Origin: Chloroflexota bacterium
Lineage (GTDB): Bacteria > Chloroflexota > Dehalococcoidia > Lucifugimonadales > HRBIN23
DNA: 46,838 nt
Reading direction: 5' to 3'
Assembly: GCA_016210325.1 (NCBI GenBank)
Contig: JACQUK010000043.1
Location: 1 to 46,838 of the forward strand
The notes under the pieces are model-generated. The model ran no database searches. It was not told where the DNA came from and saw only the letters and a program-made list of their open reading frames with translations. Position numbers and translations under genes: made by a program. This document shows, piece after piece, positions 8,006 through 41,219 of this stretch; within the stretch, counting starts at the first letter, position 1, and each line of letters opens with the position of its first letter.

Positions 8006-8120
8006 CTGTTGACATTCTGCCGTTTCTTCCGCTCATGGTTCGACAAGCTCACCACGAGCGGATGGCCGTTTGGTCCGCTCACCCTGAACTCGTCGAAGGG
8101 CGAGCGGACAATGTCAACAG
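8006..8120. repeat. MITE-like composite repeat with CTGTTGACATT ends
   Basis: The most complete copy of the main repeat family. It has perfect 11-bp terminal inverted repeats, CTGTTGACATT (8006-8016) and AATGTCAACAG (8110-8120), enclosing two palindromic modules, CCGCTCATGGTTCGACAAGC and CCGCTCACCCTGAACTCG. It encodes no protein. The rest of the gap to 8326 contains another imperfect palindrome at 8193-8228 (TCCCGACACGTCCCGAT and its near complement) and nothing else I recognise. Confidence 0.78.
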
Positions 8121-32133: not shown

Positions 32134-33594
32134 TTACTTTGCAGTTTCCAAGGCGCGTCTAATCGTAGCAACTACATCACGTTTGAGTGCGTTTATTCCA
32201 TCATAGGTGATGCGGTAGATGATTACCCGTCGATTGCGCAGGTCAAATGGTACATCCTCTACGGTTTGCGAGAGCAATACTACCTCTTTTCCCAGAACAT
32301 CTGCCATTCCAACTTCATAGAATACATTAGGATTCCGTCCTGTAAGGTCAGCGACGACGAGTCGAGCGGTCAGGAGGGAATCCCAGATAGATTGCATAAT
32401 GTCCCGGGTATCAAAAATGTCATCAGCCCGGACGACTCTAAGACCAAGTTCCTGTTCCATCGTCGGCCTAAGATGGTTCTGAAAAGCCCTCTCCATCTCC
32501 GAAAGGTTCTCGGAAGCATTGGGTCTGGGCAGTTGCATTAGGAAGAAGACCAAAGAGGGATCTACTTTTGTGTTAGTCGTGGACCACCTTGGTTGCACGA
32601 ACAACGCGTCCCCTTGAACAACCGATTGGAGGGCCTTTAGACGTCTCACAACGTCCTGTGCTTCGCCTTGCAGTTTCCTATATTGTCGCGCAAGCTTGAT
32701 CTTATCATCGAAAGCTGTCTCGAGGAGGCTTTCCACAAAGCGGTCGCGTTCGTGCTGGCTTAAAACAGAACCACATGCGGCTAGCAAGCGTAGGTCAAGC
32801 AAAGGAATATCTTGGTTCTTGTAGAAGTTATCTTCATCCAAGTTTCTAAACTCGATGAGTGTCGAGACCAAATCGACAGCGGGCTTCTGAGTGTTCAAAT
32901 CGGGAAACGAGCAAGCTAATTCCGCTAGATCGAAGGCAATGTAGGCACCCTGGAGGGGATCTGACCTTAGTTCAGACCGCACAGACTCATGGGTCAACGA
33001 CCGGACAATCGAGCGTACTGTTGTCTTCGCTGAGGTCTTCCCAACAACAATGCCTACCTTGTTGGCCTCCCCCAGCATGAACGCTAGAAACCCCAGGGTC
33101 GCAGGACGACGAATCTCAGCTTTGCGCCGAAGCACCCACTCCAAGCCTTTCTTGCCAGCCGGTACAGCATCTGGGCATTGAGACGCCAGCAGTATTTGCA
33201 CAGCAGTCAGCGTGGGAAACGGGTCATAACTGTCAGCTGCTTCGACAAATCCTAGAGGAAGATTGATGTTTCCCGCTCGCCCGACCATGTTCACCAGGAT
33301 TTTGTCCACAGCTTGTTTCTGAAAGTCCAGTGTGACTCCCGTTCCCACTAACGCCATGAGCCGGAAAGGGCTGACCGAGCGCGGGTTTCTATCGCGCGGA
33401 TCCTCTAGTTTTGCGAACCAGTCCAAAGCTTGATCGATATACGACTTGAATGCAACTCGGCTAATCGCCGAAAGTGCTTGTACGAAATGATATGTGTAAA
33501 CGTCACTTCCTAAGAAGTCACCGTCATCGCTTTGGTGCGCCAACACGCGGTCAAGTAGGGCCTTCGTTGTGCCAACAATGACTGCGCTGTTCAT
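32134..33594 (-). CDS. Two-domain protein with nucleoside-deoxyribosyltransferase/TIR-like C-terminal domain
   Basis: A 486-residue protein (start ATG 33594 with GGGAG eight bases upstream; the open frame runs on to a TTG at 33753, which has GGAAAGG in front, so a longer form is possible). Residues 1-330 look all-helical and repeat-like, beginning LLDRVLAHQSDDGDFLGSDV; the Q-x-x-DG-x-F pattern recalls alpha/alpha-toroid repeats. Residues about 347-486 have VFFLMQLPRP, VVRADDIFDT and VVADLTGRNPNVFYEVGMA, the fold shared by nucleoside 2-deoxyribosyltransferases and TIR-like NAD- or nucleotide-cleaving effectors. No membrane segment. Sequence is AT-richer than its metabolic neighbours. It sits beside a toxin-antitoxin pair; a defence or stress effector is my inference. 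Confidence 0.7.
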   Translation of the reverse strand: MNSAVIVGTTKALLDRVLAHQSDDGDFLGSDVYTYHFVQALSAISRVAFKSYIDQALDWFAKLEDPRDRNPRSVSPFRLMALVGTGVTLDFQKQAVDKILVNMVGRAGNINLPLGFVEAADSYDPFPTLTAVQILLASQCPDAVPAGKKGLEWVLRRKAEIRRPATLGFLAFMLGEANKVGIVVGKTSAKTTVRSIVRSLTHESVRSELRSDPLQGAYIAFDLAELACSFPDLNTQKPAVDLVSTLIEFRNLDEDNFYKNQDIPLLDLRLLAACGSVLSQHERDRFVESLLETAFDDKIKLARQYRKLQGEAQDVVRRLKALQSVVQGDALFVQPRWSTTNTKVDPSLVFFLMQLPRPNASENLSEMERAFQNHLRPTMEQELGLRVVRADDIFDTRDIMQSIWDSLLTARLVVADLTGRNPNVFYEVGMADVLGKEVVLLSQTVEDVPFDLRNRRVIIYRITYDGINALKRDVVATIRRALETAK

Positions 33595-33935
33595 CCCGCA
33601 TTCTCCCAGCCACGCTTTGCCTTCACAAGTAGAGCCTGTGGCTGTGACTCCGAGGAAGAAGCGTGTGCCTCTGATCTCTGCAACAACTGAGATAGATAGG
33701 CCAACCACTCTACAAGCATGGGTATGTGCCTTCGGTAGTGAATTGGTATCCAAGCCGCCTTTCCACCACCAGACAATGCCTCAGGGGAATCCTCCGACCT
33801 ACGGTCTAGGCACCCACTGAGCCATTGCGGTGGGGAAGCGTTCGCAAGTTTTCGTCAACCTGGTGAGCCAAGTCCGGGTGGCTCTCTGGCTACCAGACTT
33901 GCCATGCAGCGGCTCCTCATCCCTCCTGGCCCACC
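33595..33935. other. Gene-poor stretch between the effector gene and the redox gene
   Basis: About 340 bases. The first 160 may encode an N-terminal extension of the preceding minus-strand gene (the frame stays open to a TTG at 33753 and reads plausibly as VVAEIRGTRFFLGVTATGST). From 33754 to 33935 I see no gene, repeat or convincing terminator. Confidence 0.5.
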
Positions 33936-34370
33936 CTACTCCCCGCACGCCTCCTGGGCCAGCCTGGTGCCCAGGGCGATGGCGCGGGCGCAGACCCGCT
34001 GGCGCACGTCGGAGGCGCGGAACTTCTGGTAGCCCTCCGGCGTGGTGAGGTCCATCCCCGTGAGCTGGCGGCAGATGGTGCCGCCCATCTCTTGCTCAAA
34101 GCGGCTGTAGAGCTGCTGCACCCGGCTGTACACCGGGTCGGGGGACTCGCTGCCCGCCTGCCTGCCATACTTCAACCCCAGGGCCATCACGGCACCTACC
34201 AGCGCCCCGCACACGGAGCCTTGCCGAGAGATGCCGCCGCCAAAACCCGTGGCGATGCGCGGCACCGCGCCCAGGTCCAGCCCTGCCCCCTGGCCCACGG
34301 CCAGTAGCACGGTCTCCGCTCAGTTGAACCCCTTGGCGTGGATTGCCCCAACCCTTTCCTGTCCAGCCAT
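33936..34370 (-). CDS. C_GCAxxG_C_C-family redox protein with in-frame UGA (candidate selenoprotein)
   Basis: From the ATG at 34370, preceded by GGGAGGAG, the frame is open to 33936 except for one TGA at 34322-34320 (codon 17). Total length would be 144 residues, the family's usual size of about 140. The UGA falls in KGFN-x-AETVLLAVGQG, where family members have NC-A: the first conserved Cys. The other three are present: C54 (SVCGALVGAVMALGL), C100 (TICRQLTG) and C127 (RVCARAI). Five codons after the UGA, CTGGCC-GTG-GGCCAG forms a perfect 6-bp hairpin whose loop is 21 nt from the UGA, inside the range known for bacterial SECIS elements. Alternatives are a nonsense mutation or a sequencing error of TGC/TGT. 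Family members are putative redox proteins of unknown partner. Confidence 0.72.
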
Positions 34371-34443
34371 TGCTCCTCCCTTCCGTATTGCCAGGTTGTT
34401 TCCCTGCGCCAGCCCCCACGGGGCTATTCGCAACAGCTTGGTT

Positions 34444-34557
34444 CTGTTGACATCTTCCGCTCACCCTGAGCTTGTCGAAGGGCGAGCGGCCCCAGCAGGT
34501 TTCCGCTCATGGTTCGACGGGCTTACCACGATCGGAAGAAACGGCAGGATGCCAACA
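34444..34557. repeat. Composite REP/MITE-like repeat
   Basis: Starts CTGTTGACATCTTCCGCTC and holds the modules CCCTGAGCTTGTCGAAGGGC and CCGCTCATGGTTCGACGGGC. The right end, GGAAGAAACGGCAGGATGCC, is the near reverse complement of the left end of the 8006-8120 copy, so both ends are present though diverged. Confidence 0.75.
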
Positions 34558-34574: not shown

Positions 34575-34619
34575 GAAAACAAAAGCGCCGGGACCCAGTC
34601 CCCAACTGAGTTCCGGCGC
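34575..34619 (-). terminator. Intrinsic terminator downstream of the acyl-CoA dehydrogenase operon
   Basis: A long stem: GCGCCGGGACCCAGT pairs with ACTGAGTTCCGGCGC around loop CCCCA, with one mismatch and one G-U pair. On the minus strand it is followed by TTTTGTTTTC. On the plus strand a T-rich run comes after nine bases, so it may act weakly both ways. It lies about 140 bases after the stop at 34757. Confidence 0.75.
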
Positions 34620-35942: not shown

Positions 35943-37118
35943 TCACTCCCTGGGCAGGCCCAGACCGCGGGTGGCAATGACGTTGCGCTGGATCTCCGAA
36001 GAGCCACCCATAATCTTGTGGCCGAAGGTGGTCAGCCACCCGTTCTCGATGCGGCCCCTGAGGGGTGCCCACTTGGAGTCGGGCTCCAGGCCGCCGTACA
36101 TGCCCAGCAGTTGCAGCCCCACGTCGTACATCTTGTGGCCAATCTCGGTGCCGAAGAGCTTGGTAGCGGAGGCCTCCTTGTTGGGCACCTGGCCGTGGCC
36201 CTGCATCCATGCCACCTGGTAGCAGATGAGGCGCAGCGCCTCAGTCTCCACCGCCATCTCCGCCAGGGCGTGCCGCACCAGCGGCTTTTTGCCCAGAGGC
36301 TCGCCATCCACCACCGTCTCCCGGGCGAAGGTCACCAGCTCGTCCAGCACCCGTCTTGACCGGGTGACCCACCCCACACCGGAGCGCTCGAAGTCCAGCA
36401 GGGCAGCGCCCACGTACCAACCCCGGTCCTTCTCGCCCACCAGGTTGGCCTTGGGGATGCGCACGTTGTACAGGTACACCAGCGCCCGGTACCGTCCCCA
36501 CATCCTGGGGATCTTGGTCACCGTCACGCCGGGCATCCGCATGTCGTCCAAGAGCAGGAAGGAGATGCCACGGTGCTTGGGGGCGTCTGGGTTGGTGCGG
36601 GCCATGAGGAACATTTTGTCGGCGTCGCCGTGGGCGCCGTTCCAGATCTTGCTGCCGGACACCACAAAGTCGTCGCCGTCCTCCACCGCCCGGGTCTGGA
36701 GGGAGGCCAGGTCGGAGCCGGCACCCGGCTCGGAGTACCCCTGCGCCCAGACCCACTGGGCCTTGGAGATCCCAGAGAGATAGTAGGCCTTCTGCCTTTC
36801 AGTACCGTACATCATCAGGATAGGGCCTAGCATAGAGATGCCGTTGTCAATGGCCGGCACTCCCCAGTAGGCTGTCTCCTCGTTAAAGACCAACTGCTTG
36901 ATGTGCGAGGCAGCCTGCCCACCGTACTCCTTGGGCCAGGCCATGGTGAGCCACCCCTTGTCAGAAAGCTTCTTGCGGAACTTCCGCGCGAAGGCGACCC
37001 CGTCTTCTTCCTCGAAGTCCATGTTCCGCTCGAACCAGTCGTCGGGCAACTCCTGCTTCAGAAAACCACGAACCTCTTGGCGGAAGGCCTCTTCTTCTGG
37101 GCCGAACCGGAAATCCAT
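35943..37118 (-). CDS. Acyl-CoA dehydrogenase, catalytic-type subunit
   Basis: A 391-residue acyl-CoA dehydrogenase: GYSEPGAGSDLASLQTRAVE (flavin and substrate loop), DDFVVSGSKIWNGAHGDADK, C-terminal MGGSSEIQRNVIATRGLGLP. The usual Glu before GTSEI is Gly, but E244 in LLDFERSG lies where isovaleryl-CoA dehydrogenase keeps its base, so it is likely active. The ATG at 37118 follows GGGGAGATG. It is translated just ahead of the second dehydrogenase gene and probably forms a hetero-oligomer with it. Confidence 0.9.
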   Translation of the reverse strand: MDFRFGPEEEAFRQEVRGFLKQELPDDWFERNMDFEEEDGVAFARKFRKKLSDKGWLTMAWPKEYGGQAASHIKQLVFNEETAYWGVPAIDNGISMLGPILMMYGTERQKAYYLSGISKAQWVWAQGYSEPGAGSDLASLQTRAVEDGDDFVVSGSKIWNGAHGDADKMFLMARTNPDAPKHRGISFLLLDDMRMPGVTVTKIPRMWGRYRALVYLYNVRIPKANLVGEKDRGWYVGAALLDFERSGVGWVTRSRRVLDELVTFARETVVDGEPLGKKPLVRHALAEMAVETEALRLICYQVAWMQGHGQVPNKEASATKLFGTEIGHKMYDVGLQLLGMYGGLEPDSKWAPLRGRIENGWLTTFGHKIMGGSSEIQRNVIATRGLGLPRE

Positions 37119-40364: not shown

Positions 40365-41219
40365 TCAGTTTGAACGGTCAAGCAGTGAAACTATCTCTTC
40401 CGCTGTCCACACATGGTCAGTTAGGCCGGCGGCCATCGCCGGGGTAGTGCGGTAGGGCTTGCTGAGCGTCTGGTGTGGGCGAGCAAAGTTGTAGTGCATA
40501 AAGTGAAGGGCCAGAGCGAACATGTGGTTCTCTAGCTTCTTGGAGAAAGCGTTGGTCAACCTGGTGAACCGCCGCATGGACATCCGCATGGTAAGGTTCT
40601 GGCGCTCTACGTAGCTTGTGGAGATGTGAGCCGCGTCCGGCTTGCCCTGTATCACCCTCTTCTCTGTTCCCACGCATTCGGCGGGACTGTACCGCCGCCG
40701 GGCCTCTTTGGTAGGCTCCACAGGCCCGTAGAGCTTGATCAGCATGGCGTAGTCTATCTCAGAGCCGAACGCGCCCTCTACCGCCTCTAGGTATGGGGTG
40801 TGACCGTCAGTGGTGAGTTGGACGCGGTGGGTGAGCCTGGCCGCTAGGCCAGTGATGAACTGGTGAGCGTCGTCAGCGTTCCGTGCGCCCACGTGCCAGC
40901 ACGGAACGAGCTTGGTTGCAGCGTCTATGGCGGTCCAGGTCCACACGTCCCCATACCCAAACTCGCCCTGGTGCCGCTCCGGCACGTTCTTGGCCTTGGA
41001 GTAGACGAAGCTCCAGATTTCGTCGCACTGAAGCCGCTTGCAGGGTAGGTTGTGCATGGTCTTGTCCTGGTAGTCCAGGCACGCAGCGCCGAGTTCTCTG
41101 AGTAGCTTCACCACGGTGTTGACGGCTACCCCCATCATGCGCGAGGTGCTGCGGATGGAGTTCCCTTCGCAGAGGGCCTTCACTACCTGGGTTTGGCGCT
41201 CTAGATTCAGCTTGTTCAT
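40365..41219 (-). CDS. IS1-family DDE transposase (single ORF)
   Basis: A 284-residue transposase. N-terminal helix-turn-helix (EGNSIRSTSRMMGVAVNTVV, about 18-37), then DDE residues D66 (QCDEIWSFV), D138 (LTTDGHTPYL) and E205 (STSYVERQNLTMRMSMR). Unlike enterobacterial IS1 there is no frameshift; one frame covers all. It has a strong own promoter (41247-41275) and a hairpin over its ribosome-binding site. The final codons and the stop overlap the left inverted repeat. It appears intact. Confidence 0.93.
   Translation of the reverse strand: MNKLNLERQTQVVKALCEGNSIRSTSRMMGVAVNTVVKLLRELGAACLDYQDKTMHNLPCKRLQCDEIWSFVYSKAKNVPERHQGEFGYGDVWTWTAIDAATKLVPCWHVGARNADDAHQFITGLAARLTHRVQLTTDGHTPYLEAVEGAFGSEIDYAMLIKLYGPVEPTKEARRRYSPAECVGTEKRVIQGKPDAAHISTSYVERQNLTMRMSMRRFTRLTNAFSKKLENHMFALALHFMHYNFARPHQTLSKPYRTTPAMAAGLTDHVWTAEEIVSLLDRSN

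Follow-up and report, generated by a model that had tools for sequence, protein, structure and literature searches.

A Chloroflexota member of the C_GCAxxG_C_C redox family very probably carries selenocysteine at the first of four invariant cysteine positions

The C-GCAxxG-C-C proteins have been listed among the prokaryotic selenoprotein families (PMC9312934) and described in forms 1 and 2 (PMC13188914), and the NCBI name of model TIGR01909 is 'C-GCAxxG-C-C family (seleno)protein'. The gene described here adds a new member to this already known selenoprotein family and lies on the minus strand at 33936..34370 of a 46,838-nucleotide stretch of Chloroflexota DNA (the window). Its product matches the family over its whole length, shares the four invariant positions and, with the in-frame UGA read as cysteine or selenocysteine, scores above the curated cut-off of both family profiles (PF09719, E 3.4e-27, 95.3 bits against a cut-off of 27; TIGR01909, E 1.6e-22, 79.8 bits against 47.4). 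The family pattern C ... CG ... C ... C is present as C/U17, C54-G55, C100 and C127, all invariant in a 40-sequence alignment; conservation does not extend to a fifth cysteine, C142. The UGA occupies the first of the four invariant cysteine positions and is spanned by the PF09719 match, which begins at residue 15. Nothing essential separates the protein from the family, of which it would be a lineage-specific member with selenocysteine at the first cysteine.

Several other described proteins show likeness to the window protein. The first domain of the HUGP/GUXX-star fusion selenoprotein (NF045501) is related to it over residues 4-131, but the 55.5 bits of this match fall far short of the cut-off of 325, and the window protein is a single domain of 144 residues that reads N-U-A-E where NF045501 has H-U-G-P and lacks the GUXX-star domain. 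A homologue within the phylum (L079) has the HUGP motif with its U in the same column as U17, and through this sequence the selenocysteine of the HUGP domain appears to share the column of U17. The DVU_1555 family C-GCAxxG-C-C protein (NF045669) is likewise related (48 bits), the score lying below the cut-off of 103 and the window protein thus outside that family. Split-Soret cytochrome c was also considered: the PDB chain 1h21 gives a weak phmmer match near the second cysteine motif (E 0.022, residues 15-72) and has no cysteine at the position aligned to U17, and the profile NF047622 matches residues 43-73 (E 1.9e-5). With matches this weak and no significant Foldseek hit in the PDB for the predicted structure, kinship with the cytochrome is not established.

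The open frame comprises 144 codons, running from an ATG (34370-34368) directly preceded by a Shine-Dalgarno-like GGGAGGAG (34373..34380) to a TAG (33938-33936), and its sole internal stop is the TGA of codon 17 (34320..34322). The ribosome-binding site, the start codon, the single TGA on a conserved cysteine, the otherwise intact frame and the three remaining conserved cysteines had all been proposed in an initial annotation of this DNA, and each was borne out. Third-position G+C downstream of the UGA is 0.91, compared with 0.64 for the window, which is typical of coding sequence. Comparison with the homologue in a genome of the same taxonomic family (G001; 57% identity over the match) gave a dS of 1.1 and a dN of 0.44, with a dN of 0.42 downstream of the UGA, which indicates that the frame past the UGA is under purifying selection at the protein level. 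The 16 codons upstream of the UGA are less conserved, except for the adjoining GFN, and the two genes share GFN(U)AE across the UGA.

Relatives of the gene were found in 43 of 400 genomes of the phylum and were pooled with relatives from other phyla, giving 67 distinct sequences that cover the column of codon 17. This column holds TGA in 12 of them, TGC or TGT in 55 and no other codon, so that the Cys/UGA pairs sought among homologues occur at exactly the position of the proposed selenocysteine. The same TGA is found in both copies from G001, in two genes each from G013, G083 and G091, in single genes from G031 and G394, and in a paralogue in the host genome itself (L036, G000:C150:8939-9256), which is the only other C_GCAxxG_C_C gene found there. 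That paralogue, with a stem TCCTGCT(CGGGCTGA)AGCAGGA, is a second selenoprotein candidate. Several further stops in relatives, an outcome the initial annotation had named as speaking against its reading, were not seen: neither TAA nor TAG occurs inside the matched segments, and one further TGA, in L019, adjoins a masked stretch and lies outside the codon-17 column.

Behind the UGA lies the perfect hairpin CTGGCC(GTG)GGCCAG (34290..34304, minus strand), which we recovered as initially annotated, with its apical loop 21 nt downstream of the UGA; it sits within a longer, imperfect stem-loop in the 48-nt stretch that starts at the UGA (34275..34322). The published model of the bacterial SECIS asks for a loop of 3-9 nt, an upper stem of 4-16 bp, a G in the first two loop positions, a spacing of 16-37 nt and a minimum free energy of at most -7.5 kcal/mol (PMC13188914). 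With its GUG loop of 3 nt, stem of 6 bp, spacing of 21 nt and -21.6 kcal/mol over 48 nt, the element lies within all of these bounds, although an Rfam search of the window at the gathering cut-off found no SECIS family. Taken singly, in this G+C-rich DNA, the hairpin is only weakly significant (z -2.1; 10 of 200 dinucleotide shuffles fold at least as well, and about 10% of codon shuffles yield an equally strong stem). The case that it exceeds chance comes from the homologues, in each of which we took the best stem with a G at loop position 1 or 2 and recorded the distance of its loop from the UGA or cysteine codon. All 12 UGA genes have this loop at 17-21 nt from the UGA, nine of them in a register of 17-18 nt and the other three in one of 20-21 nt, a shift of one codon. 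A best stem with its loop at 16-22 nt was present in 12/12 UGA genes against 9/55 cysteine genes (Fisher p 5e-8), and stem strength at this site also separated the two groups (p 5e-10; p 1.4e-7 against cysteine genes with G+C of at least 0.55), these p values overstating the evidence because related sequences are treated as independent.

The components needed to decode the UGA are present in the host genome, a draft assembly (2.29 Mb, 157 contigs, 82% complete, 4.7% estimated contamination). We found selA (580 bits), selB, selD (394 bits) and a tRNA-Sec with anticodon UCA (74.8 bits), the full set for which the initial annotation had advised looking and whose absence it had held to be damaging. 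The selD gene (L015, G000:C102:592-1515) also carries a single in-frame TGA, within the motif AGUAAK, the usual selenocysteine site of SelD, and the host SelD is itself likely a selenoprotein. In this fragmented assembly the sel genes sit on contigs other than that of the selenoprotein gene and may possibly have been misplaced through a binning error, a worry tempered by two further genomes from the same taxonomic family, in which selB and tRNA-Sec also occur. Each of the seven genomes with a UGA copy reaches at least 66 bits for tRNA-Sec, and the 14 genomes whose best tRNA-Sec match is below 55 bits carry cysteine copies only. Across these 44 genomes a UGA copy is present in 7 of the 30 with tRNA-Sec and in 0 of the 14 without (p 0.053), an association in the expected direction that is borderline by itself. 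In G031 (88% complete), which has a UGA copy and tRNA-Sec, a selB above the cut-off was not found.

The sequences show an open frame, a column of TGA and cysteine codons, a stem-loop behind the UGA, the decoding machinery and a pattern of selection; together these support the reading of residue 17 as selenocysteine, and other accounts of the TGA have to be weighed against them. As one base change converts TGC or TGT to TGA and the assembly is a fragmented draft, the TGA could have arisen by a recent nonsense mutation in a cysteine codon or reflect a wrong base there. This is very improbable, as the UGA recurs independently, in the same column, in the paralogue and in homologues from six other genomes, which already contradicts it; the lack of further stops in the frame, the purifying selection seen in the comparison with G001 and a stem-loop specific to the UGA copies also argue against a pseudogene. 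A true product beginning after the UGA, with the upstream codons untranslated, is the output to be expected from a standard gene caller; the list of open reading frames indeed contains one of 124 residues with a GTG start at 34310 (33936-34310). Such a product would lack the invariant first cysteine of the family, and it would leave unexplained both the conservation of GFN(U)AE with G001 and a family profile that matches from residue 15. The strong ribosome-binding site with its ATG (34380-34368), set against none evident just ahead of 34310, points the same way, and we consider this start hardly credible.

Some bacteria use genetic codes in which UGA is reassigned, and decoding of codon 17 as cysteine or tryptophan, through a changed code or by plain read-through, would equally leave the frame open. 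UGA still terminates a Pfam-supported gene of the window (35943-37118), however, the other Pfam-supported window frames that were checked have no internal TGA, and the presence of tRNA-Sec, SelA, SelB and SelD also speaks for selenocysteine, so that this account has almost no probability in our view. The gene thus very probably encodes a C_GCAxxG_C_C redox selenoprotein with selenocysteine in place of the first invariant cysteine, as the initial annotation had claimed for residue 17 and as the machinery, the Cys/UGA pairs and the SECIS fit now support. Nothing that this annotation had named as refuting its reading was observed.

Under the selenocysteine reading, SelA, SelD and tRNA-Sec(UCA) would produce the Sec-tRNA, SelB would bind the stem-loop directly behind the UGA and deliver selenocysteine at codon 17, and the ribosome would then continue through to the TAG at 33938. 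The predicted structural model is all-helical, with a pLDDT of 94 over the whole read-through protein, and its helix 17-29 begins with Sec17. From there Sec17 may act as the nucleophilic or electron-accepting half of a selenosulfide couple, of which the partner would be one of C54, C100 and C127. Alternatively, Sec17 might join the other three invariant positions in coordinating a metal or iron-sulphur centre, rather than serve as a catalytic nucleophile, in which case the protein would be a selenolate-ligated electron-transfer protein. We regard this as unlikely, its only hint being the faint resemblance to split-Soret cytochrome c.

The genes around the locus provide no functional clue, either in the window or at nine other UGA loci, since the neighbours differ from locus to locus. 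In the window, acyl-CoA dehydrogenases lie upstream, and a 539-residue open frame with no Pfam match (32134-33753, minus strand) lies directly downstream; elsewhere the neighbours include methylmalonyl-CoA mutase with a DNA methylase, zinc dehydrogenases, a QueG-like Fe-S protein, a rubredoxin-reductase-like enzyme, glycine cleavage T protein, exonuclease VII and others. The selenoprotein gene may have a transcript of its own, as suggested by a hairpin resembling a terminator (34587..34606, minus strand) that follows the acyl-CoA dehydrogenase gene upstream; this sign is weak, 2 such hairpins having been found against 0.7 expected. A dispersed, palindrome-like 17-mer, CCTTCGACAAGCTCAGG, has four copies in the window against 0.04 expected (163-179 and 2575-2591 on the plus strand; 8083-8099, with two mismatches, and 34465-34481 on the minus strand), the last of them just upstream of the selenoprotein gene. 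Genome-wide it occurs in 46 copies with at most one mismatch, and the reversed pattern in none. Weak transposase matches (IS1 and IS240-like DDE) were also seen in a frame at 40365-41219 (minus strand).

The understanding of selenocysteine decoding is unchanged by this case. Its practical consequence is that standard gene callers would start the gene past the UGA or omit it, and the key residue would be lost. For the family, which is uncharacterised, the gene adds a clear example, accompanied in its genome by a paralogue, and the Sec/Cys pairs found inside one phylum may be used to ask what selenium contributes.
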